From: Kaiparowitsia implicata GSE-PSE-MK54-09C
GTDB taxonomy: Bacteria > Cyanobacteriota > Cyanobacteriia > Elainellales > Elainellaceae
Direction: 5' to 3'
Length of the DNA: 41,803 nt
NCBI GenBank assembly: GCA_019359435.1
Contig: JAHHHI010000013.1
Location: 1 to 41,803, forward strand
Under the pieces are notes generated by a model. The model was not told where the DNA came from. It did not search any database and worked only from the letters and a program-made list of their open reading frames with translations. Below, piece after piece: positions 5,936 to 38,656 of the stretch; the first letter of the stretch is position 1, and every line of letters starts with the position of its first letter. Both the position numbers and the translations under genes were made by a program.

Positions 5936-6865
5936 ATGAAAATAGTGGCTCTTGTCCCCGGCACCATTGCCGATCAAATCCCGGTATTTCCCTCGTTGGA
6001 CGATTTAAAGCAGACCTATCCCAATGCCGAGATCGATGTTGTGGTTGAGCCCGGTGCGATGGGAGCCTATCGGCTATCCAAAGCGGTCAATAGCACCATT
6101 GCTTTTACCTTTGGGGGCAACAACAGCCCAGCAGACTGGGCCAACCTGCTGGGAGTGCTGCGCGATCGCTACTATGATATGGCCCTGCTCATGCGCCCGG
6201 CCTGGGGGGTCGGGTTGTTGCTGTGGCTTGCGGGCACTCCGGTACGAGCAGGCTTTGGCAAACGCAGCTTATTTTTTACTAATACTCTTCCGTTTAAAGC
6301 AGACCAATATGCCCCAGCAGCCTATCACGATTTGCTGACTGTTATAGGCGTGTCACCCGACTGCCCCGATCTGGCGATCAGCATTCCCAAGCGCGACTTA
6401 GACTGGGCCGACGGAGAGAAAAAACGACTGGGCATTGGCGGTATCGGCTATGTGCTCATGCACGATGGGAGTAATCCCGGCTATCCAGCGGAGCACTGGC
6501 GGGCGATCGCTCAAGATTTTCAGCAGAAACAGCCCGGCTTACCCTTGGTGTGGGTGCAAGATGATGCGAATAAGGTATTAGCCAGCACCTTGTCTCAGGC
6601 ATTACCTGACCTCAAGGTGACGACGCCGTCTGACTTAGGAAAGTTGGCAGCGATGATTGCGGGAGCAAACCTGTTGCTTTGTACCGAAGGAGTTGCAGTG
6701 CAGTTGGCGATCGCCCTTCAGGTTTATACACTGTGCCTATTCGATTCAGGCGATCCCAGCCACACAATGCCACCGAGTGACAAATTTTTGCCGATTCAGG
6801 CCAATACAGGCAACCTGAGCGATATTTCGCCGCAGATGGTGCTGCAAAAGGTGTGGGGCGGCTAG
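5936..6865 (+). CDS. GT9-family (heptosyltransferase-like) glycosyltransferase
   Basis: 309 residues related to glycosyltransferase family 9, the ADP-heptose:LPS heptosyltransferase fold (GT-B). The N-terminal Rossmann half reads MKIVALVPGTIADQIPVFPS with LKQTYPNAEIDVVVEPG. The C-terminal half holds the conserved nucleotide-sugar part (HDGSNPGYPAEHWRAIAQDF; then LAAMIAGANLLLCTEGVAVQLAIAL), where family members usually have PGSS-W-P and NDSGP. Here the second motif is CTEGVAVQLA, a divergent form. It probably adds a sugar to an envelope polysaccharide or lipid. Its TAG stop (6863-6865) is part of the CTAG that begins a family 1 repeat, which separates it from the convergent CRR6 gene. Confidence 0.8.
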   Translation: MKIVALVPGTIADQIPVFPSLDDLKQTYPNAEIDVVVEPGAMGAYRLSKAVNSTIAFTFGGNNSPADWANLLGVLRDRYYDMALLMRPAWGVGLLLWLAGTPVRAGFGKRSLFFTNTLPFKADQYAPAAYHDLLTVIGVSPDCPDLAISIPKRDLDWADGEKKRLGIGGIGYVLMHDGSNPGYPAEHWRAIAQDFQQKQPGLPLVWVQDDANKVLASTLSQALPDLKVTTPSDLGKLAAMIAGANLLLCTEGVAVQLAIALQVYTLCLFDSGDPSHTMPPSDKFLPIQANTGNLSDISPQMVLQKVWGG

Positions 6866-6995
6866 AAGCTGTCATCAATTAGCCTCTGATATCCTAGAAA
6901 TCAACAGTCACAGCCCCTAGCCTGGTTTTTAGGTCAGGCGTGGCAACGCTCATAGCATAAGGGCGTTTGGTTGAAATTGATAACAGGCCCTACTA
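6862..6995 (+). repeat. family 1 CTAG-bounded miniature element, copy A
   Basis: About 134 bp, matching the copies at 14622, 26452 and 38527. It starts CTAGAAGCTGTCATCAATTA and ends near GATAACAGGCCCTACTAG. It fills the gap between the convergent GT9 and CRR6 genes. The GT9 TAG stop is inside the left CTAG and the CRR6 TAG stop (minus strand, 6993-6995) is inside the right CTAG. It has an internal 59-bp palindromic unit ending at CACAGCCCCTAG. No coding capacity. Confidence 0.85.
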
Positions 6996-8791: not shown

Positions 8792-9963
8792 CCGCTTTGT
8801 CTAGTCCTGCTACAACGTGCTCTATAAAAATAACCTGAAATAATCCTTTGTTAGTGTTGCGCATAAACTGACCAGCCAAAACTTGGGTCAATGTTAGGGG
8901 GGAATCAGCTTGAATTCTCAATTTGCTGTGCATGCGATGGGTGCCCCAAATGCTCTTGGTTGACTCATTAACCAGACTTGATCTGAGCTGATATCTGGTT
9001 AGGATTTTGCGTAGCGTAGAGTGGGGGCGAGGCAGAATTCTGATGCTCTCGATGCTGAAACCGACCTTTCTCATAGGTTTTAGACTATAGGGTTAATTCT
9101 CATGAGTCTCCAATGCTAGGGTAAGAAGGTGCAAAGAAACAAAAGGTCTGAATACCAAAGATTTCAGCCTTACTCATGGGATTTGGATTTGATCTAACTC
9201 CTTAGACCGTACAGCATTAGTCACGAAATCTATAGATTTTTGATGTTTGCTCTTTATTAGCTCACCATCTTAGTCAGAGATCCGTATCATAGATGGAACA
9301 TCAGCTCGGATAAACTTGCGCTTTAGCTAAGCGTTGCTTTAGTGAAAGGGGTTCTGAGTATCGGGTGCATGTTCCTTCTGATGTTGCCTTAGCGCCACGA
9401 GTGCATGTTGGTGATGAGCAAATCGGGAAGTTGATTCAAGTCAGGATTGCCATACCTATTGCAGAGCAAACGCATCAGCGTTCGTCACTAAATTTTGGCG
9501 ATGCGATTTGATGATCAGATTCAGTTGGCTTAGGAGGGCGATCGCCCCTGCCTAGGATTCAATTGAGGACAGGGTGTTGTAGAGTCGGTTGAGCATCGGC
9601 TGAGAACGACCTAACTCGCATATAGGTTGCAGCGCGCTGTTAACAGCGCGCTGCAAGTTTGACGCTTTTTTGTGTGCGGGTGGATAAATTTTTGGAAATC
9701 TGAGCCGAATGTCGAAAGTGCGACTATTCTATAGAATGCAAAGGGCATGGCCCAGAGCAGGGCCAGAGCAGGATGTGTTTATGGCCTGAGGTTTCTATCG
9801 CACCCTGTCTTATCATTGTTGTCAACTCCGTTGATGTGACCTGAGTGAGCGTTGCAAGCGCGGTGTTTTTAGGAAGCCCGCAGCCCAGCGCAGCCCATGC
9901 AATCAGCCGGAGCTGATATCCAGGATTGTTGATGACTCTCTTTCATCGTTGGGGAAGTGGACC
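8792..9963. other. 1.17 kb gene-poor region upstream of pdhA and ftn2
   Basis: No convincing gene. An open frame on the minus strand (8685-9074) overlaps the pdhA start in another frame and looks spurious. A plus-strand frame without a start codon is open from 9314 to a stop at 9509-9511 (about 65 codons, with VHVGDEQIGKLIQVRIAIP), possibly a decayed gene. A perfect 30-bp palindrome lies at 9627-9656. The region must also hold the promoters of the two divergent genes. Confidence 0.4.
9627..9656. repeat. perfect 30-bp palindrome followed by a T-run
   Basis: Arms TTGCAGCGCGCTGTT and AACAGCGCGCTGCAA meet at a GTTAAC centre without mismatch. A run of six T follows 8 bases after the right arm (9665-9670). 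It could form a terminator-like hairpin in a plus-strand transcript or a cruciform or binding site in DNA. It is about 300 bp ahead of ftn2. Confidence 0.6.
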
Positions 9964-12387
9964 GTGAGAATTCCGCTTGATTATTATCGGATTTTAGGGT
10001 TGCCGGTTCAGGCGACAGATGACCAACTGCAACAAGCCCATCGCGATCGCGCGTTGCAGCTTCCTCGACGAGAATATTCTGAGGGGGCGATCGCCTCTCG
10101 CAAGCAACTGCTAGATGAGGCTTATACCGTTCTAGCCGACACAGCGCAGCGCAGCGCTTACAATGCTAGCTTTTTGGCTAACACCTACGAAGACGCCGAG
10201 ACCACGTCCGGTGCTATGCCGCTCGACCCTGCAACCAATCCTTATGCGTCTAGCATCACCATTCAAGAGTCACAACTGGTTGGGGCGCTATTAGTTCTGC
10301 TAGAGCTAGGGGAATACGAGCTAGTGCTGAAGCTGGGGCAACCCTACCTGACCAGTCGGCCCGCCAGCAGTGAGCAAATGACGGCAGGCACCACCCGTAG
10401 CGATGTGCTGCTAACGGTAGCGCTATCGTATTTGGAATTGGGACGCGAGCAGTGGCACCAGGGTCAGTATGAAGGTGCCGCCGAGTCCCTTCAGGCTGGG
10501 CATGCACTGCTACAGCGGGATGGCCTATTTGGGAATGTTCGTAACGAGATGCAATCTGATCTGTATAAGCTACGCCCCTATCGCATTTTGGAACTGTTAG
10601 CACTGCCTGAGCAAAATCAGCTAGAGCGGCGACGTGGGCTAACGTTGCTGCAGGATATGCTGAATGACCGGGGCGGCATTGATGGCTTAGGCGATGATCA
10701 ATCAGGCCTGCAGATTGACGATTTTTTGCGGTTTATTCAGCAGCTCCGCAGCTACCTGTCTACGGCAGAACAACAAACCCTGTTTGAGTCTGAGGCACAG
10801 CGCCCTTCGGCGGTCGCTACATATCTGGCTGTCTATGCCCTGCTGGCTCGCGGATTTGCCTATCGCCAACCGGCGTTGGTGCGACGTGCGAAGAACTTGC
10901 TCCAACGGCTCAGCAGCCGTCAGGACGTGTTTTTGGAACAGGCCGTGTGCTCGCTGCTGCTAGGTCAAACCGAAGATGCTAGCTATGCTTTAGATCATAG
11001 TCAAGAGGCGGAGTCCATCCGGTTTATTCGCGAGCATTCTCACGGGTCGCCTGATTGCTTGCCGGGGCTGTGCCTCTATAGCGAGCGCTGGCTACAAAAT
11101 GAAGTGTTTCCTCATTTCTCTGACCTGGCGCAGCAAATGGCCTCATTGAAAGATTATTTTGCAGACAGCCAAGTGCAGGGCTATTTGGAAGAGTTGCCCA
11201 GTGATTCTGCTGACAGCAGCGATGCCGTAGCGCCTGCAGTCTATGGCTATTCGGGGGCGATCGCCCCCATGACAGCCCCTGCCGAAGCGCGAAATCATAC
11301 CTATGAGCAGGCTGCTGGCAGCGATGGGCCGGGCGGTCGATTTGCAACTGCGACAACCGCCACAATAGAGTCGCGCCTGCCTGCCTCTCGACCGTCTGGC
11401 CCTGCTCCGCGGGCAAATGGCACCAATGGCAGCGGCGCGATGCCCACCGCAGAACGCGTCTCCCAACTGTCTCCAGAAGGTCGGCTAACGGGGAGTGGGG
11501 GTGGGCGATCGCAGCCCTCTTCACCCGCACCATCTAGCCCTCGAAGACCCAGCCCCGCCGCCCCTATTCGCGATAACGCGTCGCCTTACTCACCCGATAG
11601 CGATTCCTCCTTTAGCCTAGCTCGGCTGTTGTTTTTGGTCGCACTGGGCATTTTGGGATTAGCAGTGGTTTGGTTCTTACTGTCAAGCATTTCGCGAGCC
11701 CTGTTCCGTGGCCCCACACTGACTGGCGATCAGTTGCAAATCAGCCTAAATGAGCCACCGATAGAAATTCCCGACCCCACTGCTGAACCGGCCACACCCG
11801 ACCCCACCGAACCTCTCTCAGTCGAGGGCGCGCGCTCAGTGATAGATGCGTGGCTTGCGGCAAAACGGGCTTCAATGGGGCCAACTAACGACATCAGCCA
11901 GTTGAGCAACGTGCTCACCGGCAGTGTGCTGGTAGAACGGCAGGGTATGGCAGAGGATGCTCGCCAAAATGGCCTTTCTTATAGCTATCGCCATTCTGTT
12001 GAAGATGTGCGGGTGTTGCCCATTAACGCGCAAACCCCAAACCAAGCGCAGGTAGACGCGGTTGTTGTAGAAGCCACGAATGATGAACCCGCCAGCCGCC
12101 TGCTAGTGCGCTATGACATGATTCGGCAGGATGGCACATGGCGGATTCAGGGCATTACTGCTCAGCCTGACGGCGCCACTACTGAGTTCACCACTCCAGA
12201 CGAGGAGACCCTTTCTGATACCGACAGCGAGTTTGAAACGCCACTAACGCCCGCGCCAAATCCGTTAGACAATGATGCGGAGGTTCCTGTGGGCGGACCG
12301 AACGGTGCAGACCCTAGCGGAATCCCGCCAACGAATACATTTCCGCAGCCTAATCCCATTAATCCGTCCACTCCGCCGACTAACTAA
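9964..12387 (+). CDS. ftn2: ARC6-like cell division protein Ftn2/ZipN
   Basis: About 807 residues. The N-terminus (RIPLDYYRILGLPVQATD) starts a degenerate J-like domain lacking the HPD motif. Then come a long helical region, a low-complexity Ser/Pro/Ala linker (about 430-545), one transmembrane segment (about 550-575, LLFLVALGILGLAVVWFLL) and a C-terminal IMS/DUF4101-type domain (about 620-740, ARSVIDAWLAAKRASMG ... YDMIRQDGTWRIQGI). This is the layout of cyanobacterial Ftn2/ZipN and plant ARC6, inner-membrane proteins that tether FtsZ and organise the divisome. The GTG at 9964 is chosen because GGGGAAG lies 6 bases upstream and the family starts with MRIPLDYYRILGLP. A TTG at 9949 is in frame but less likely. 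The tail is Pro/Thr/Asn-rich. The gene is convergent with dnaA. Confidence 0.93.
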   Translation: MRIPLDYYRILGLPVQATDDQLQQAHRDRALQLPRREYSEGAIASRKQLLDEAYTVLADTAQRSAYNASFLANTYEDAETTSGAMPLDPATNPYASSITIQESQLVGALLVLLELGEYELVLKLGQPYLTSRPASSEQMTAGTTRSDVLLTVALSYLELGREQWHQGQYEGAAESLQAGHALLQRDGLFGNVRNEMQSDLYKLRPYRILELLALPEQNQLERRRGLTLLQDMLNDRGGIDGLGDDQSGLQIDDFLRFIQQLRSYLSTAEQQTLFESEAQRPSAVATYLAVYALLARGFAYRQPALVRRAKNLLQRLSSRQDVFLEQAVCSLLLGQTEDASYALDHSQEAESIRFIREHSHGSPDCLPGLCLYSERWLQNEVFPHFSDLAQQMASLKDYFADSQVQGYLEELPSDSADSSDAVAPAVYGYSGAIAPMTAPAEARNHTYEQAAGSDGPGGRFATATTATIESRLPASRPSGPAPRANGTNGSGAMPTAERVSQLSPEGRLTGSGGGRSQPSSPAPSSPRRPSPAAPIRDNASPYSPDSDSSFSLARLLFLVALGILGLAVVWFLLSSISRALFRGPTLTGDQLQISLNEPPIEIPDPTAEPATPDPTEPLSVEGARSVIDAWLAAKRASMGPTNDISQLSNVLTGSVLVERQGMAEDARQNGLSYSYRHSVEDVRVLPINAQTPNQAQVDAVVVEATNDEPASRLLVRYDMIRQDGTWRIQGITAQPDGATTEFTTPDEETLSDTDSEFETPLTPAPNPLDNDAEVPVGGPNGADPSGIPPTNTFPQPNPINPSTPPTN

Positions 12388-12402
12388 TGACTAACTAATA
12401 CA

Positions 12403-12527
12403 GCCTGAGTTTGGGATACACTCAAACCCTGAATGTGCCGTGCGCATTGCGCACGGCACATTCAGGGTTTTGAGGCACTGTGCTATCGAGCCGCGCCCCA
12501 AGAAAGCGTCTTGACCCGAGTTTAGGT
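12403..12527 (-). repeat. family 2 double-hairpin element, degenerate reverse copy; likely bidirectional terminator
   Basis: Lies between the convergent ftn2 and dnaA genes. Read on the plus strand it begins GCCTGAGTTTGGGATAC, the inverse of the right end of the other copies, and holds a near-perfect hairpin (12421-12474) with arms around CCCTGAATGTGCCGTGCGC and its complement. The second hairpin and far end (TTGACCCGAGTTTAGGT, 12511-12527) are decayed. In the stem the variable pair is G-C, where other copies have T-A or C-G. The position suggests it now ends transcription from both sides. Confidence 0.7.
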
Positions 12528-12546
12528 CAGAGTTAGTTTATAGCGC

Positions 12547-13959
12547 TTACCGATTCCAGCGGCGTGATGAGGGAGCTTGTGCCTTGTTGTTGACTGAAAG
12601 GCGATCGCTCAACTGACGCAACGTTTTGGCCATGTCGGCATCCGTTTCCTTTAACTGTGTAATTTTTTCACAGCTATAGAGCACGGTGGTGTGGTCTTTT
12701 CCTCCAAACACTTCGCCAATTTTTGGCAGGCTCAGCCCGGTGTGATGGCGCATTAAATACATGCCGATTTGGCGAGCGACGCTAATCTCGCGGCGACGAG
12801 ACGTGCTCTTAAGGTCATCAATGGAGACACGAAATTCTTCGGCGATCGCCATCATAATGGCCTCGGGCGAGGCCTCTACCTGCTCATTCGGTGGATTGAG
12901 CACAGGAGTAATGTTTTCTACCGTCATTTGCAGGCCCGAAATTGAGATATAGGCGACAGCCCGAATCAGCGCCCCTTCCAATTCTCGAATGTTGGAGGTA
13001 TAGCTAGAGGCAATATACTCAATCACCTCACGAGGCAGACGCATGTTTTCGTATTCTGCCTTTTTCTGCAAAATTGCCATGCGGGTTTCTAAATCGGGCG
13101 GCTGAATGTCGGCAATCAGTCCCATCGAGAACCGTGAACTTAGCCGTTCCTGGAGGCGGGGAATTTGGCTGGGGGGGCGATCGCTCGCTAGCACAACCTG
13201 CTTTCCAGCCTCGTGCAGCGTATTAAAGGTATGAAAAAATTCTTCCTGCGTATATTCCTTGCCTTCAATGAACTGAATATCATCCACAATGAGCACATCC
13301 ACAGCCCGATAGAGATCGCGAAAGCTCTGCATGCTGTCTTTGCGAATGGCTGTAATCAAATCATTGGTGAATTGTTCTGTTGAGACGTAATAGACCTTGG
13401 CATCGGGGTTAATTTCTTGCCGATAGTGCCCAATGGCCTGCATGAGGTGAGTTTTGCCCAACCCAACCCCCCCGCATAGAAAAAGGGGATTGAACTCACG
13501 ACCAGGGGATTCTGCCACCGCCAACGACGCCGCGTGAGCCATGCGGTTATTAGACCCCACCACAAATCGTGAAAATATATACTTTGGGTTGAGATCTGAG
13601 GGTTTGGGGCGGTGGCCCTGGGCTGCGGGTGTCGGTGGCAGCACCTCTGGCTGTGCGTCCGGCATGGGCCACAAATCTGCATCCTCAACCGTTCCGTCTG
13701 CATCTTCACCTTGCCGTACGGTGATCACAATAGTGACGGGATGTTCTAGCAGGTCATAGACCACCTCAGTGATGGTTTTTAGGTAGTACTTTTGCAGCCA
13801 GTTACGGGCAAAGACGTTCTGGGTGCAAATGACAAGCTGCTGGTCATCCAGGTGCTCAATGGTGGCAGGCTTGATCCAGGTTTCGAAGGTGGGGCGGCTC
13901 AGTTTCAACTGCAACCGCTCCAACACTTGACTCCAGAAGGTTTCCAGGACAACGGTCAC
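12547..13959 (-). CDS. dnaA: chromosomal replication initiator DnaA
   Basis: 470 residues. Domain I starts [21 protein letters not shown] short variable domain II follows. Domain III (AAA+) shows Walker [14 protein letters not shown], Walker [11 protein letters not shown] and sensor motifs ([11 protein letters not shown]). Domain IV shows the DnaA signature [15 protein letters not shown] that binds DnaA boxes. It opens the origin for replication start. The ATG at 13959 gives the normal length. No dnaN or other replication gene adjoins it, and I saw no cluster of TTATCCACA-type DnaA boxes next to it, in line with many cyanobacteria where oriC and dnaA are not closely linked. Confidence 0.98.
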
Positions 13960-14621: not shown

Positions 14622-14752
14622 CTAGGGGCTGTCATCAATTAGCCTCTAATATTCCAGAAATCAACAGTCACAGGCCCTAGCCTGGTTTTTGGGTTGGGCG
14701 TGGCAACGCTCATAGCATCAGGCGTTTGGTTGGAATTGATGACACGCCCTAG
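14622..14752 (+). repeat. family 1 CTAG-bounded miniature element, copy B (intact reference)
   Basis: 131 bp from CTAGGGGCTGTCATCAATTA to GATGACACGCCCTAG. The ends are inverted repeats (CTAGGG, then TGTCATCAATT in both). The first 59 bp form a palindromic unit that ends in GTCACAGGCCCTAG; the remaining 72 bp include GGCAACGCTCATAGCAT. It abuts a family 3 element and shares TAG with it at 14750-14752. Confidence 0.9.
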
Positions 14753-16607: not shown

Positions 16608-17720
16608 ATGACGACTCCACAACCGCTGTTAACGTCGGTAACTGTTGGTGCTTACACCCTGCCCAATCGGGTTGTGATGGCGCCTCTCACCCGCAATCGC
16701 GCCGGCGAGGGCAATGCACCCACCGCGATGAATGCTGTCTATTACCGTCAGCGGGCGACCGCCGGGCTGATCATTTCTGAAGCAACCCAGATCTCGCCCC
16801 AGGGGATGGGGTATCCCGGCACGCCAGGCATTTATTCTGCTGAGCAAATTGCAGGGTGGAAGCAGGTGACCGATGCCGTGCATGAGCGGGGTGGACGAAT
16901 CTTCTTGCAGCTATGGCATGTGGGGCGCATTTCGCATCCCTCGCTGCAGCCCAACGGGGAGTTGCCTGTGGCCCCGAGTGCGATCGCCCCAGACGGCATG
17001 GCCGCCACCTATGACGGCATGCAGCCCTTTGTCACGCCCCGAGCGCTCGAAACGGAAGAACTGCCGGGACTGATTGCCGCCTATCGCCAAGCGGCAGAAA
17101 ACGCCCAGGCCGCTGGGTTTGACGGGGTCGAAGTTCACAGCGCGAACGGCTATCTACTCGATCAGTTTTTGCAGGATGGGTCTAACCAGCGCACCGATCA
17201 GTATGGCGGCTCTATCGAAAATCGTGCTCGCTTGCTGTTTGAGGTGTTAGATGCCGTAGTGGATGTTTGGGGGGGCGATCGCGTCGGCATTCGCCTCTCG
17301 CCCAGCGGCACGTTTAACGACATGGTGGACTCAGATCCCCAGAGCTTATTTACCTATGTGATCTCGCGGCTAAATCCCTATAACCTGGCTTATCTGCACC
17401 TGATCGAGCCCCGCACCGGCGAAGATTCACAGAATCCTGCCCATGATAAAGCGGTGATGCTCACGTCTGAGTACTTCCGCACGGTGTATACCGGTATCAT
17501 TCTGGCGGCGAGTGGCTATACGCAAGACACGGGCAATGGGGCGATCGCCCAAAACCACGCAGATCTAGTTGCCTTTGGGCGGCTCTACATCTCCAACCCC
17601 GACTTGGTAGACCGCTTTGCTCACAACGCGCCACTTAATCCCTACGATCGGGATACCTTCTACGGCGGCAACGAAGCTGGCTACATTGACTACCCAACAT
17701 TGACAGAACAAGTGGCTTAG
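16608..17720 (+). CDS. Old Yellow Enzyme family alkene reductase
   Basis: 370 residues, the standard length of the NADH:flavin oxidoreductase / OYE family (NemA, XenB, OPR-like). These FMN enzymes reduce activated C=C bonds and detoxify electrophiles such as N-ethylmaleimide or nitro compounds. Visible features: PLTRNRAGEGNAPTAMNAVYY near the flavin, WHVGRISHPSLQPNG, the substrate-activating His-Asn pair in VEVHSANGYLLDQFLQDGSN, the Arg-rich GSIENRARLLFEV, and the FMN phosphate site ADLVAFGRLYISNPDLVDR. Start ATG at 16608. It is divergent from the ArsR/RNase HI fusion, an arrangement often seen between reductases and their regulators. A family 2 hairpin element lies 78 bp after the stop. Confidence 0.93.
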   Translation: MTTPQPLLTSVTVGAYTLPNRVVMAPLTRNRAGEGNAPTAMNAVYYRQRATAGLIISEATQISPQGMGYPGTPGIYSAEQIAGWKQVTDAVHERGGRIFLQLWHVGRISHPSLQPNGELPVAPSAIAPDGMAATYDGMQPFVTPRALETEELPGLIAAYRQAAENAQAAGFDGVEVHSANGYLLDQFLQDGSNQRTDQYGGSIENRARLLFEVLDAVVDVWGGDRVGIRLSPSGTFNDMVDSDPQSLFTYVISRLNPYNLAYLHLIEPRTGEDSQNPAHDKAVMLTSEYFRTVYTGIILAASGYTQDTGNGAIAQNHADLVAFGRLYISNPDLVDRFAHNAPLNPYDRDTFYGGNEAGYIDYPTLTEQVA

Positions 17721-17798
17721 ACTGTCTGGGTGTGCACCATTGATTTGGAATGATTGATGTGAGATAGCAGATGGGGCGAAGTCTTTTGAGATCTAGAT

Positions 17799-17922
17799 AA
17801 CGTCAGTTCGGGTTAAGAGGGTTTTGGGGCATCGCGCGTCGCGCGATGCCCCAAAACCCTTAATGTGCCGTGCGCGTCGCGCACGGCACATTAAGGGTTT
17901 GAGCTTATCCCGAACTCAGGTT
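17799..17922 (+). repeat. family 2 double-hairpin element, copy 1
   Basis: 124 bp. The ends are inverted repeats, AACGTCAGTTCGGG at left and CCCGAACTCAGGTT at right. Two long hairpins follow one another: stem 1 at 17819-17859 (GGGTTTTGGGGCATCGCGCG and complement) and stem 2 at about 17854-17900 (AAACCCTTAATGTGCCGTGC and complement). The flanks repeat AGAT (17795-17798 and 17923-17926), a possible target duplication. It sits downstream of the OYE gene. Confidence 0.85.
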
Positions 17923-18238
17923 AGATAGAGCAAGGGTTTCGCCCCACCCGCTATGGGCCTATACGAAGCATCTGACTGCTGGGCAACACTGAATGGCAAT
18001 GTAATGATGGGAGGCAGCACCTGTTCTCGGAAACTATCATCTATGCCAACCCACTTCTCTCGCAACTCAGTAGCGATTAGTCCATCCAACGCTGGGAGAA
18101 AGGATTTCATCCCAACAATTAGTGTTCTAGCGGCACTAGAACCTGCCATCAACCAAATGCAAATGGGTAGTGCATTAATGTAAAGGATAAAGAAAAAAAA
18201 TAGGATATCGCCGTAGCACACTCAAGGGAGTAGGGCCC

Positions 18239-26451: not shown

Positions 26452-26710
26452 CTAGGGGCTGTCATCAATTAACGTCAGTTCGGGTTAAGAGGCTTTTGGG
26501 GCATCGCGCGACGCGCGATGCCCCAAAAGCCTTAATGTGCCGTGCGCGTCGCGCACGGCACATTAAGGCTTTGAGCCTATCCCGAACTCAGGTTCAATTA
26601 GCTTCTGATATCCCAGAAATCAACAGTCACAGCCCCTAGTCTGGCTTTTGGGTCGGACGTGGTAACGCTCATAGCATAAGACGTTTGGTTGGAATTGATG
26701 ACACGCCCTA
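26452..26710 (+). repeat. family 1 CTAG-bounded element, copy C, split by a family 2 insertion
   Basis: Starts CTAGGGGCTGTCATCAATT and resumes after the insertion as CAATTAGCTTCTGATATC, continuing to GATGACACGCCCTA. Removing the 124-bp insert and one CAATT leaves 130 bp, matching the intact 131-bp copy at 14622. The right end reads CTAA where other copies have CTAG. Confidence 0.9.
26471..26594 (+). repeat. family 2 double-hairpin element, copy 2, nested in family 1
   Basis: 124 bp, the same length as copy 1. Flanked by CAATT at 26466-26470 and 26595-26599, a clean target-site duplication inside a recognisable host repeat. Stem 1 has GGC/GCC at its base where copy 1 has GGG/CCC, a compensatory difference. 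Confidence 0.92.
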
Positions 26711-28631: not shown

Positions 28632-29527
28632 GCAGTTACTACCCTCTCTCGAACCAGGATCTTACACAGCAGAAGATCAAACCTGCTACCGCCTGCGGAC
28701 ACCTAAATGGATAGCTCACTCCCCGGACTACTGGGCGAGAAACCATTCTGTCACTGTGCCTACATCCCTATTTCAGAAGAAATTTCAAAAAGTAGAGATG
28801 ACAGGTCTCAGCGGGTTTGAGGAACATCATCAAATCGCAATTAGCAATCCATAGATCATTCCCAACTAATACCTTCTTATTAACTAGTGTATAAGAAACT
28901 ACAACTATTGCAATAAAAAATCCGATTTATATTGAGGAATATGAATACAACCCCACACAAACGTTAACCCAACTGTCAGTTTAGGTAGATCGTAGAACGC
29001 ACGAAAAGAGACGGATTGCTGCATTCTGGATTGCATGTCGTTCAGCTTTAACTGAACGTTCGCCCAGTGTGGTGATCTGCATCCTTAGATGCCCAAATTT
29101 TTCAGACCCCAACCTAAGCGGGTTAAGGGGGTTTTGGGGCACCGCGCGTCGCGCGGTGCCCCAAAACCCTCAATGTGCCGTGCGCACCGCGCACGGCACA
29201 TTGAGGGTTTGAGCTTATTCCGAACTCAGGTTAAGCAGATGTACCAGATCGGTAGCTATCTGGGCGCTAAGCACCATGGGGCGGTGCTGAATGCGTTAGG
29301 CTATCGCTAGTTTTGTCTTTAGGTTTTTTGTCCTTAGGTTTAAGGTCATAGGCGCTGATGGCGATTGGGTCGTGGTGGTTTAGGTCATGCCATTGGGTAA
29401 CGCGGGCTGCGACCCGCACAACGGCATGATTGATCTACTAGATTGCTGGCGATCGCAGGGGCGATCGCTCCGGTGAGTTCATGGGCTTTCTACCATCTGT
29501 TCTACCGAGTTAAGGGAGGCTAAATAT
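28632..29527. other. long intergenic region, AT-rich, with one repeat
   Basis: About 900 bp between the divergent ABC1 kinase and trkA-like genes. It holds an AT-rich part (28855-28950), an inverted repeat CGTTCAG-CTTTAA-CTGAACG at 29039-29058, a family 2 element at 29111-29232 and, after it, an open end (KQMYQIGSYLGAKHHGAVLN to the stop at 29308-29310) that may be the tail of a decayed gene. The strong GGGAGG at 29513-29518 serves the trkA-like ATG. Confidence 0.4.
29111..29232 (+). repeat. family 2 double-hairpin element, copy 3
   Basis: 122 bp. The right end CCGAACTCAGGTT is conserved; the left end AACCTAAGCGGG has lost a few bases. Stem 1 has GCACCGCGCG/CGCGGTGC where copy 1 has GCATCGCGCG/CGCGATGC, and stem 2 has CCCTCAATG/CATTGAGGG where copy 1 has CCCTTAATG/CATTAAGGG. 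Both are paired changes. No target duplication is obvious. Confidence 0.85.
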
Positions 29528-33519: not shown

Positions 33520-34000
33520 TAGAAATTCAGGGCGTGTGTGAGGTTAGAGAATGATGCGGACGTACTATTATGGGTCACTCCGCAGACCAGTTCTGTAAAA
33601 AAATGTTACACATCCGTTCACAAGATTAAGACATACCGCTTAGTAAATTCGAAGTGCTGAGAATATCAAGAGACGCTAGATGTTCCACTATAGTCCCCAA
33701 AACACCGCAATATCTTCTATCTATTGGGGGACTGAGGGAACGGACGAAATGTTGCGAGTTGATCTGAACGTGCGATTTATGAGTGACTGTAGTGTCTATG
33801 TTAAGAATCTTAACACTAGCCTCATGGGTTTGCATATCCCTCCAGTAGGAGGGTTTGGGCTGTTCTTCTGCCGTTGACCGTTAAATTAGGTATAACCTAC
33901 CCGCAAATGTTCGATTCGTATGCATCCTGTACGACAAATTTTAGATTTATGGGTGATGTTTCACCCCTGTGGTTCTCAGAAACAAAGTCTAGAACGAGGG
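33520..34000. other. intergenic region with two small hairpins
   Basis: About 480 bp. It holds GTTAAG-AAT-CTTAAC at 33800-33814 and CCCTCC-AGTA-GGAGGG at 33838-33853 followed by TTTGGGCTGTTCTT, which together look like the 3' part of a short plus-strand transcript. Two overlapping 65-69 codon frames on opposite strands cover it, but neither looks like a protein. Confidence 0.35.
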
Positions 34001-34059
34001 CTAGGGGCTGTGACTGTTAATTTCTGAGATATCAGAAGCTAATTGATGACAGCCCCTAG
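34001..34059 (-). repeat. family 1 element, copy D: stand-alone 59-bp module
   Basis: Perfect ends CTAGGGGCTGT and ACAGCCCCTAG. In reverse it matches only the first 59 bp of the 131-bp element (CATCAATTAGCTTCTGATAT within), showing that this part exists as a separate unit. The TAG stop of the neighbouring minus-strand gene (34062-34064) is 3 bases away. Confidence 0.85.
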
Positions 34060-34061
34060 GG

Positions 34062-35690
34062 CTATTGCCACGTCTGCGAGGTGCTGAGCCAGCCATTGAC
34101 CCAGTTCGTGACCTGATGCCGACAAGGTTTAATTATTGCCCCCATTCCCACTAGTAGCAATCCGAGCAGCCCTAACACGGCACCCATCACTAGGGGTACA
34201 GGCTGCATCGCCAGCCCCAACAGGTGCAGCCCTTGCAGGCCCAACACCAGCCCCCCCAGATACAAATAGGCGCGGATTTTGCCACACACCCCCGCCACAA
34301 GAAACCCTACGCTAAGGGCGATCGCCAGCAGCGTATAGGTCAGGCTATTGCCTGGGGCGGCCATCGCCTGATAGAAAGCCGTCAGACAGATGAGCCCCGT
34401 GGCTAAGCTCCGCAGCAGGTGGCGACGGGTGCGAGCCGAGACAGCCGTCAAGGTCGGCTCTACCTGCGCAACATATAGAAGACATCCACCGACCACACTG
34501 CTCAACCCCAAAGGCGTGAGCCAAGCTTGAATCGTGAGGAATTTGAGCACGGCCCAGACCAATAACGCTAGGCTGAGGTAGCTAAACCCCCGATGCTGAA
34601 AGCGGGATGCGATGCTGGCGTAGAATGCCGCCGTGAGTAGCAGGGTGGGGACGTTGACTTCGCTTGTCGTCAGCAGCACAACGAGAATGGGTAAAACGGA
34701 GAGGACGAGGCGCGATCGCCGCCACAGCTTTGGAGCCACACTCCACCGCGCCCAGAGCAGTCTCAACAGCATCAGACATATTCCCGAAGCGATCGCCGCT
34801 GCCCATTGCAGCAGCACAAACTGATTCACCACGTGCAGATCCAGTCTGCCCACACCCACAACGACCCAGCTCAGTTCACCGATGGCAATGGCGATCGTTA
34901 ACAGCCCTACAGCCGTAATTGCTCTCAGGCGGCGATCGCGCTGCCCCACACCCCCTGCAATGCCCCCCGCTATCAGGGTATAAATCCCTGTCATTGGGGT
35001 GAACCGAGTAGTGTGCGCTAGCGCTAAGCCTAGCCCTGCATAGAGCAAGGGCACCCCATGCCAGCTCGGCCAGTAGTCGCAGCGCTGCCAGCGGGTCCAC
35101 CCTTCTCCCAACCCATAGCTAGCTAGCCCTAGCGCCAGCGTTGCGATCTCCCACTGAGCGACGTCCGGTGGCTGCCAGATCAGTATTACGGCGCACTGAG
35201 CCGCCCAGCCCAGCGCTAAAAATCCCCCATTTGTCGGTCGCTGAACCAGATGCAGGGCGATCGCCCCTATCCCTAACGTCACCGCCGCCAAGATAGAGCC
35301 AGACGGCACATAGCCAAGCAGTATCGTCCACAAACAGGCCACTGTCAGCACCGACAGCCCGACTAGCACTCCCAAGCCCGACCAAGCCCGTGCTGCTGCG
35401 CAATAGAGGTGAAACAGCGGGCGATCGCTGCGCCCCAACAGTATGGCCATTGCCGCTAGACCCAAGACGGCGATCGCGCCCCACACCATCCAGCCCTCAC
35501 CCGATTGAGGCGAATACCATCGCTGCACCCCATGCCAGCCCGTAGCCAGCAGCAGACCCACCGACAGCAGCGCCGCCAGCATCGCCTGGGGCAAAAGCTG
35601 ATGTTGCAGAGAATAGGTGGCTCCCGCACTCAACAACAGAGCGATCGCCAGTATCACCACGCCCGGCTCGGCCCCTGTTGCTCCTGCCAT
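34062..35690 (-). CDS. polytopic membrane protein of unknown function
   Basis: 542 residues made almost wholly of hydrophobic helices, roughly 14 or more (for example VVILAIALLLSAGATYSL, GVLVGLSVLTVACLWTILLG, VLSVLPILVVLLTTSEVNV), with few charged residues and a rare Arg/Trp loop between them. I recognise no catalytic motif or transporter signature. It resembles large cyanobacterial integral membrane proteins of unknown role. The ATG at 35690 is the only plausible start. The stop lies next to the family 1 module. Codon usage and HIP1 content match the neighbours, so it looks native. Confidence 0.75.
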   Translation of the reverse strand: MAGATGAEPGVVILAIALLLSAGATYSLQHQLLPQAMLAALLSVGLLLATGWHGVQRWYSPQSGEGWMVWGAIAVLGLAAMAILLGRSDRPLFHLYCAAARAWSGLGVLVGLSVLTVACLWTILLGYVPSGSILAAVTLGIGAIALHLVQRPTNGGFLALGWAAQCAVILIWQPPDVAQWEIATLALGLASYGLGEGWTRWQRCDYWPSWHGVPLLYAGLGLALAHTTRFTPMTGIYTLIAGGIAGGVGQRDRRLRAITAVGLLTIAIAIGELSWVVVGVGRLDLHVVNQFVLLQWAAAIASGICLMLLRLLWARWSVAPKLWRRSRLVLSVLPILVVLLTTSEVNVPTLLLTAAFYASIASRFQHRGFSYLSLALLVWAVLKFLTIQAWLTPLGLSSVVGGCLLYVAQVEPTLTAVSARTRRHLLRSLATGLICLTAFYQAMAAPGNSLTYTLLAIALSVGFLVAGVCGKIRAYLYLGGLVLGLQGLHLLGLAMQPVPLVMGAVLGLLGLLLVGMGAIIKPCRHQVTNWVNGWLSTSQTWQ

Positions 35691-37663: not shown

Positions 37664-38530
37664 GTGAAACTTGCCGTATATGGAAAAGGTGGCATTGGTA
37701 AGTCCACCACCAGTTGCAACATATCCGTGGCTCTCGCCAAACGCGGCAAAAAAGTGTTGCAAATTGGTTGCGACCCCAAGCACGACAGCACCTTTACGCT
37801 CACCGGGTTTCTAATTCCCACCATCATCGACACCCTACAAGAGAAGAATTTTCACTACGAAGACGTATGGCCTGAAGACGTGATCTACAAGGGCTATGGC
37901 GGTGTGGACTGCGTAGAAGCAGGTGGCCCCCCGGCTGGCGCAGGCTGCGGCGGCTATGTGGTGGGTGAAACCGTCAAACTGCTGAAAGAGCTCAACGCCT
38001 TCGATGAGTACGACGTGATTCTATTTGACGTGCTGGGCGACGTGGTGTGTGGAGGCTTTGCCGCCCCACTCAACTATGCTGATTACTGCATGATTGTGAC
38101 CGACAACGGCTTCGATGCCCTATTTGCCGCCAACCGAATTGCCGCCTCCGTGCGCGAAAAAGCCCGCACCCACCCCCTGCGCCTGGCAGGGCTCATCGGC
38201 AACCGCACCAGCAAGCGCGACCTAATTGACAAGTACATCGAAACAGTGCCCATGCCTGTGCTCGAAGTGCTGCCGCTGATCGAAGACATCCGCATCTCAC
38301 GCGTCAAAGGCAAAACCCTGTTCGAAATGGCCGAAACAGAGCCAGAACTGAACTATGTCTGCGATTATTACCTCAACATTGCCGACCAGGTTCTTGCACA
38401 GCCCGAAGGTGTGGTGCCCACCGACGCCCCCGACCGCGATCTGTTTAGCCTGCTATCAGACTTCTACCTCAACCCTGTGCAGCCCAAGGTTGCCCCCAGA
38501 GAAGAAGAGTTAGATCTCATGATGGTCTAG
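37664..38530 (+). CDS. chlL: light-independent protochlorophyllide reductase iron-sulfur ATP-binding protein
   Basis: 288 residues, NifH-like dimer that passes electrons to ChlN-ChlB for dark reduction of protochlorophyllide. The P-loop [14 protein letters not shown] is at the N-terminus. The two [4Fe-4S] cysteines lie in [11 protein letters not shown] and [12 protein letters not shown]. The Switch II-like DVLGDVV is intact. The GTG start at 37664 is fixed by AGGAGA seven bases upstream and by the family N-terminus [10 protein letters not shown]. The TAG stop lies in the CTAG that begins a reversed family 1 repeat. chlN follows after a DUF5331-like gene. Confidence 0.98.
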
Positions 38531-38656
38531 GGCGTGTCATCAATGCCGACCAAAAGCCCTATGCTATGAGCGTTGCCAGCTCGATCAACAGAATAGGCTA
38601 GGAGCTGTGACCGTTGATTTTTGGGCCATCAGCGGCTAATGAATGACAGTCCCTAG
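38527..38656 (-). repeat. family 1 CTAG-bounded element, copy E (reverse)
   Basis: 130 bp, CTAGGGCGTGTCATCAAT to ATGACAGTCCCTAG, reversed relative to copies A-C. The first CTAG contains the chlL stop codon. It separates chlL from the next gene. Confidence 0.88.

Follow-up and report, generated by a model that had tools for sequence, protein, structure and literature searches.

Double-hairpin IS982-type MITEs of cyanobacteria with covarying arms and inverted tips that are probably products of DNA template switching

The window, by which we mean the whole stretch of 41,803 nucleotides of Kaiparowitsia implicata analyzed here, carries four copies of a double-hairpin element (Table 1). A sequence-only reading had proposed two adjacent hairpins at 17799-17922, 26471-26594 and 29111-29232 and in a decayed reverse copy at 12403-12527. 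Two adjacent near-perfect palindromes were confirmed in each of the first three; the reverse copy is indeed decayed and retains a hairpin 2 with 100% complementary arms, but its first hairpin has been lost. This fourth copy lies in the gap between an ARC6-like gene (9949-12387) and the convergent dnaA gene (12547-13959), just past the end of dnaA. Copy 2 shares 96% and copy 3 shares 86% identity with copy 1; under a covariance model derived from 22 aligned copies of three genera, copies 1-3 reached 140, 135 and 124 bits and copy 4 reached 52 bits.

Table 1. Positions of the element copies and of their parts in the window
Feature	Position	Strand	Remark
Copy 1 of the double-hairpin MITE, 122 bp	17800..17921	+	borders inferred from the target duplications
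Copy 1, left target duplication TAGATA	17794..17799	+	direct reading and duplication statistics
Copy 1, right target duplication TAGATA	17922..17927	+	direct reading and duplication statistics
Copy 1, left terminal inverted repeat ACGTCAGTTCGGGTTAAG	17800..17817	+	equals one end of the IS982-type element
Copy 1, right terminal inverted repeat, minus-strand ACCTGAGTTCGGGATAAG	17904..17921	-	1 base off the other end of the IS982-type element
Copy 1, hairpin 1	17818..17860	.	tip at 17838-17840
Copy 1, hairpin 2	17854..17900	.	tip at 17876-17878
Copy 2 of the MITE	26472..26593	+	sits in another repeat (26452-26471 plus 26594-26710)
Copy 2, left target duplication TCAATTA	26465..26471	+	direct reading; right duplication at 26594-26600
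Copy 3 of the MITE	29112..29231	+	both hairpins intact
Copy 4 of the MITE, decayed	12402..12528	-	without hairpin 1; intact hairpin 2 at 12424-12470

Copy 1 is found at six further places in the genome, identical across all 124 bases. The outer arm of its hairpin 2 overlaps hairpin 1, so that the middle segment is able to pair with either side. In copy 3 the left terminal repeat is short by 2 bases, and no target duplication was seen around this copy. The repeat that hosts copy 2 is present in its empty form at 14622-14752 of the window, which represents an empty site. A second dispersed repeat family (CTAGGGGCTGTCATCAATTAG...) was seen at 6862-6991, 14622-14752, 26452-26710, 33999-34063 and 38527-38578, with some members partial and one carrying copy 2; it looks like another MITE.

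Target duplications around the copies are 6-7 bp long, mostly of the form TN4-5A, and nearly all begin with T and end with A. Since the duplications regularly have these T...A ends, the element is most likely about 122 bp long, with the outermost A and T of the 124-base copies belonging to the duplication; counts of duplications of at least 5 bp alone fail to separate a 122- from a 123-bp element. Such duplications flank 67 of 93 copies from the window's own genome (G000), 27 of 77 from G013 and 78 of 96 from G003, compared with means of 1.8, 0.7 and 2.3 in shuffled-flank controls. All counted copies were gapless and matched at 85 or more of 124 positions; those of G000 contained no duplicates, four weak places there (C90:70863, C55:321571, C59:117601 and C94:138) were left out, and those of G003 and G013 were drawn largely by covariance-model score from the 150 places scored in each, an order that favours well-paired copies.

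The 122-bp element has no coding capacity, is bounded by inverted ends (ACSTSAGTTCGGG) and shows the MITE features that were tested. Both of its ends are shared with a 981-bp IS982-type element of G000, including the difference between left and right end (GTTAAG vs GATAAG). In the 981-bp element a 170-aa open piece matches DDE_Tnp_1_3 (PF13612; E 4e-59) and NF033520 (IS982) scores 149.3 bits against a cut-off of 130; its transposase gene is broken by two TGA codons and one TAG. Altogether four places in G000 exceed the NF033520 cut-off. An IS982-type gene on contig C7 is stop-free over 250 codons (231 aa from a GTG), with a doubtful start and slightly different ends. In the least broken IS982-type copy of G000 (L294, ~1450-2145), a short palindrome seems to have been inserted in frame into the transposase. 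In G003 and G013 no IS982 gene scored above the cut-off. The interiors of the MITE are not more similar to the IS982-type element than shuffled sequences are (a score as high or higher in 48, 90, 99 and 56 of 100 shuffles). Taken together, the shared ends, the target duplications, the one empty site and the high copy number identify the double-hairpin element, at the level of sequence, as a non-autonomous MITE of IS982 type. Because the IS982-type genes of G000 are broken or doubtful and none passed the cut-off in G003 and G013, we only infer its mobilization in trans by an IS982-type DDE transposase.

In G000 (6.72 Mb, 109 contigs) the covariance model gave 147 matches at 126 or more distinct places (E<=0.001); only the best 150 of 4322 first-look candidates were scored, and weak copies may be missing from this count. 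The nearly palindromic hairpin-2 pattern matched 101 times forward and 98 times in reverse, and a reversed control matched nowhere. The number of repeats in this genome is thus far beyond chance. At least 150 matches each were obtained in G003 and G013, which represent two other genera of the same family. Within the family, 15 of 36 genomes had a match at E<=0.001, and values below 1e-30 occurred solely in G000, G003 and G013. Under stricter filters, 11 of 388 genomes drawn from the class reached 1e-8, and seven of these 11 belong to one genus of another family, including Pseudanabaena sp. ABRG5-3 (G167). The elements of this genus come in types of 147-149 bp and ~109-113 bp, both with like ends and two hairpins; the 113-bp double-hairpin type was seen in G179, a genome with the same genus code (L336, L350; ends AACGTSAGTTCGA). 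In genus g13 of the window's own family, double-hairpin repeats with other ends were observed (L054, L308). A plasmid search with a window copy matched ends only, in Nostoc, Microcystis and Cyanobacterium, and one with a G003 copy had zero matches; read by eye, the Microcystis and Cyanobacterium matches have like ends and no such hairpins.

Like-folding interiors of dissimilar sequence are accordingly present in at least two cyanobacterial families. Compared with the 147-bp Pseudanabaena-genus type, 46 of 300 (G000) and 187 of 300 (G003) shuffles scored at least as high as the 124-bp interiors. In the comparison with the 113-bp type these numbers were 210 of 300 for G000, 1 of 300 for G003 and 0 of 300 for the 147-bp type. 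The control is a weak one, as palindromes were shuffled; by sequence, the hairpin interiors of the window and the Pseudanabaena-genus elements show no clear similarity and may be distantly related.

To describe the covariation of the hairpin arms we compared aligned copies column by column. As the sequence-only reading had claimed, the hairpin 2 columns 63-95 pair as T-A, T-A, C-G and G-C in copies 1-4; in copies 1-3, either GGG/CCC or GGC/GCC stands at columns 21-23/59-61. In the 22 aligned copies of three genera 98.7% of the cells are paired, a value that falls to 28-48% when the partner columns are slid by 1-3. Changes on both sides were found in 13 of 35 hairpin pairs and in none of the 16 terminal-repeat pairs. 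For the gapless copies, the share of Watson-Crick cells in hairpin 1, hairpin 2 and the terminal repeats was 97.9, 97.9 and 89.9% in G000, 92.8, 94.6 and 77.5% in G013, and 98.2, 98.2 and 96.0% in G003. Among unpaired cells, G.T (135) and A.C (104) differ by a slight lean only.

Changes between closely related copies were counted along minimum-spanning-tree links of up to 8 differences (44, 52 and 68 links in G000, G013 and G003). In the hairpins we counted 76 compensated and 111 one-sided changes, where about 0.25 compensated changes are expected; such a tree is not a phylogeny, and shared ancestry and lost intermediates inflate these counts and make p-values for the links non-independent. 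By genome (G000, G013, G003), compensated changes numbered 18, 41 and 17 (expected 0.01, 0.19 and 0.05) and one-sided changes 15, 58 and 38; three more double changes on the same links were not pair to pair. The terminal repeats, which are equally paired in the fold, had 0 compensated and 156 one-sided changes (29, 88 and 39). On nine links one compensated pair was the sole difference outside the tips. The pattern recurred in the hairpins of Pseudanabaena sp. ABRG5-3, which share no clear similarity with those of the window (21 compensated, 10 one-sided, 0.008 expected), and, as a weaker replication, in G179 (5 compensated, 6 one-sided, 0.016 expected); these counts come from 32 and 24 gapless copies, respectively, with 27 and 9 links of up to 12 differences. 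The covariation of the hairpin arms is real.

Arithmetic on the link counts of the three genomes gave a substitution rate per arm site of 0.71-0.79 of the terminal-repeat rate, which is near the prediction for arm-to-arm copying. Arms of the two Pseudanabaena-genus genomes change more slowly than unpaired sites, at only 0.57 and 0.53 times their rate. In G003 diversity is higher in the arms than in the terminal repeats (0.068 vs 0.045), opposite to G000 and G013. At columns 23/59/99, 4 of the 67 distinct G000 copies read CGC, a three-way change that fits a middle arm templating both sides. In G003, column 98 mostly fails to follow columns 22/60, and a switch between alternative folds is therefore not claimed.

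The 3-base tips of the hairpins occur in both orientations, also among copies that are otherwise identical. The reverse complement of the commonest tip ranked second in eight of ten hairpin/genome sets (one tie) and third in the other two; among 96 copies, for example, GTT was counted 44 times and AAC 30 times, and TTT 44 times and AAA 21 times. Thirteen G003 copies that are identical outside the tips had GTT in eight, AAC in four and GAC in one case in hairpin 1, and TTT in eight and AAA in five cases in hairpin 2. On the tree links of five genomes, 39 of 50 three-base tip changes were exact reverse complements (1 in 27 would be random); in G000, G013 and G003 tip changes were scored on all links (66, 76 and 82), and the tree slightly favours agreeing tips. 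The flips of G000 are mostly GAC/GTC, which amounts to a single substitution and is weaker evidence when taken alone.

Deletion forms of ~48 bp were detected with an exact pattern at six places in G000, not all of them identical and five with GGGTTTGAGC at the join; the exact pattern occurred nowhere in G003 and G013. At L035 (243-290) and L036 (222-269) 48-bp remnants of the MITE have lost both hairpins between GGGTTT direct repeats.

We consider an IS982-type MITE with hairpins reshaped by template switching the best explanation of these data, with a probability of roughly 0.78. An IS982-type DDE transposase would recognize the ends of the MITE and move it in trans. When the region becomes single-stranded, most likely during replication, the palindromes may fold back, and the polymerase could then use one hairpin arm as template for the other. 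Such templating would copy or erase single mutations, giving compensated pairs, and would invert the 3-base tip; sometimes the hairpins would be deleted between flanking direct repeats. The two tip orientations and the matched changes of the arms are observed directly, and we infer that a template switch of the polymerase causes both. Template switching is favoured because a selected RNA fold does not predict tip inversion, whereas DNA arms that template each other do.

Covariation is a standard argument for functional RNA structure. The sequence-only reading had offered two explanations, a selected RNA or DNA hairpin or hairpin-directed repair that keeps the arms equal. The latter is much better supported, by the inverted tips, the lone compensated pairs, the terminal repeats that do not covary, and an age effect in two of three genomes: compensated pairs private to a single copy increase with copy age in G000 and G013 and show no rise in G003. 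A selected hairpin, with selection keeping compensatory changes in a portable bidirectional terminator, an RNA processing site or a transposition signal, has several observations on its side and is nevertheless unlikely. The RNA of copy 1 is predicted to fold very stably (-85.7 kcal/mol), the double-hairpin plan recurs under like ends with dissimilar sequence, which is not obviously explained by mutation alone, and the slower arms of both Pseudanabaena-genus genomes leave some room for selection. Besides the tip inversion, the outer terminal stem without any compensated change on the links counted and the A.C mismatches nearly as frequent as G.T argue against it. Most likely, the covariation is here mainly a mutational outcome of DNA hairpins and not by itself proof of a useful or selected RNA.

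The genomic setting bears on the same alternative. A crude ORF count, made with no gene caller, placed 35 of 77 classified G000 copies between convergent ORFs, 30 between tandem and 12 between divergent ones; 16 of the 93 copies were left unclassified, seven too near a contig end and nine located within an ORF of the joined flanks. Convergent intervals make up 39 of 204 in the background (binomial 2e-7). The sequence-only reading, which placed the copies between convergent genes or in noncoding DNA, is broadly right on this point. The enrichment supports a selected hairpin and is compatible with a terminator-like role, but convergent gaps may simply be the places where insertion is least harmful, and mere tolerance would also fit. 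An intrinsic terminator, that is a hairpin followed by a T-run, was absent from 17700-18000, with copy 1 the sole copy scanned, and this identity was dropped; the earlier suggestion of a portable terminator was not borne out, save for the mild version that the convergent enrichment keeps. Rfam 15 covariance models at gathering score had no match in the window, and a known Rfam family was discarded as well.

The remaining alternatives concern the origin of the matched variants and the class of element. Exchange between copies, by gene conversion or recombination among subfamilies, would spread pre-existing matched variants, and pair states common to many copies, such as C-G in 28 of 93 at columns 34-48, would agree with it; it would neither produce inverted tips nor account for the compensated pairs private to single copies (12, 20 and 5 in the three genomes), and we regard it as very improbable. 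Still less credence can be given to an assembly artefact, in which short-read assemblers confuse the arms or orientations of palindromes and thereby make the arms match and the tips flip. Drafts of ~100 to 360 contigs do account for three of the five genomes, and palindromes of ~40 to 50 bp are near-identical on both strands, but flips and compensated pairs are also present in Pseudanabaena sp. ABRG5-3 (a 4.80-Mb contig plus plasmids, one described as complete), compensated differences between genera are found at many positions of both stems, and target duplications are kept in most copies of G000 and G003. Repetitive extragenic palindromes (REP/BIME), which are tied to RAYT transposases, resemble the element in having two adjacent palindromes, intergenic location and high copy number, and 82 of 93 G000 and 57 of 77 G013 copies have CGTC in their left end. 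The element's terminal inverted repeats and target duplications speak against this class, as does the DDE IS982-type element that shares its ends, and the conserved GTAG/CGTC tag is not kept in G003, where CCTG (68 of 96) or CCTC (21) is found instead; this identity, to which we attach practically no probability, was dropped.

The element is therefore of a known kind, an IS982-type MITE, and unusual as a natural experiment: the family allows one to follow how, and how often, compensatory double changes arise. Strong covariation together with inverted tips in hundreds of paralogous copies points to DNA template switching, which calls for caution when RNAs are sought in repeats by covariance. 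More tentatively, the double hairpin may be a functional module that has arisen repeatedly within one set of IS982-type ends and might aid transposition or protect the genes around it; template switching would preserve its perfect pairing and let its sequence drift freely. We consider this possible although rather doubtful; if true, a structure would be inherited via self-templating and not via sequence.

The sequence-only reading had named cataloguing as a known MITE as an outcome that would count against it. This holds for the kind, since IS982-derived MITEs have been described, and not for the family itself: in the largely open-access literature searched, we found no description of this double-hairpin MITE family, nor of any mobile element whose tips invert so often. 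The described example, MITECca01 of Cardinium, is likewise short and non-coding, has IS982-family ends, outnumbers its parent and is mostly intergenic (PMC9769881). It differs in its length of ~240 bp, and the accessible part of that report describes no internal hairpin pair or covariation, with 'hairpin' occurring 0 times and 'palindrom' once in the text (PMC9769881). Nezha and other cyanobacterial MITEs, considered here by their description only, are also miniature and have terminal repeats (PMC10969869, PMC3733652). Mitochondrial double-hairpin elements are repeated hairpins, some of them double, that are dissimilar between lineages; their stems are conserved and their loops vary, in contrast to the MITE, and the sections consulted mention neither terminal repeats nor target duplications nor a connection to a transposase (PMC2800124). 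In small plastid hairpin loops, the loop between inverted repeats flips repeatedly at identical folding energy, as the tips do here, but these are eleven non-mobile single sites compared across plant species, and compensated arms are not a subject of the part of the study available (PMC6824564). Template switching has also been described as a process by which RNA hairpins arise and are kept intact, their loops being inverted in rare cases (Monttinen and Loytynoja, 2022; PMC8794818). The proposed process is the same, with arm templating leading to compensated stems and inverted loops. As far as the consulted text of that study goes, loop inversions are rare in RNA genes (69 loop-only, 6 with a compensatory change), whereas among the paralogues of the MITE both orientations are common.
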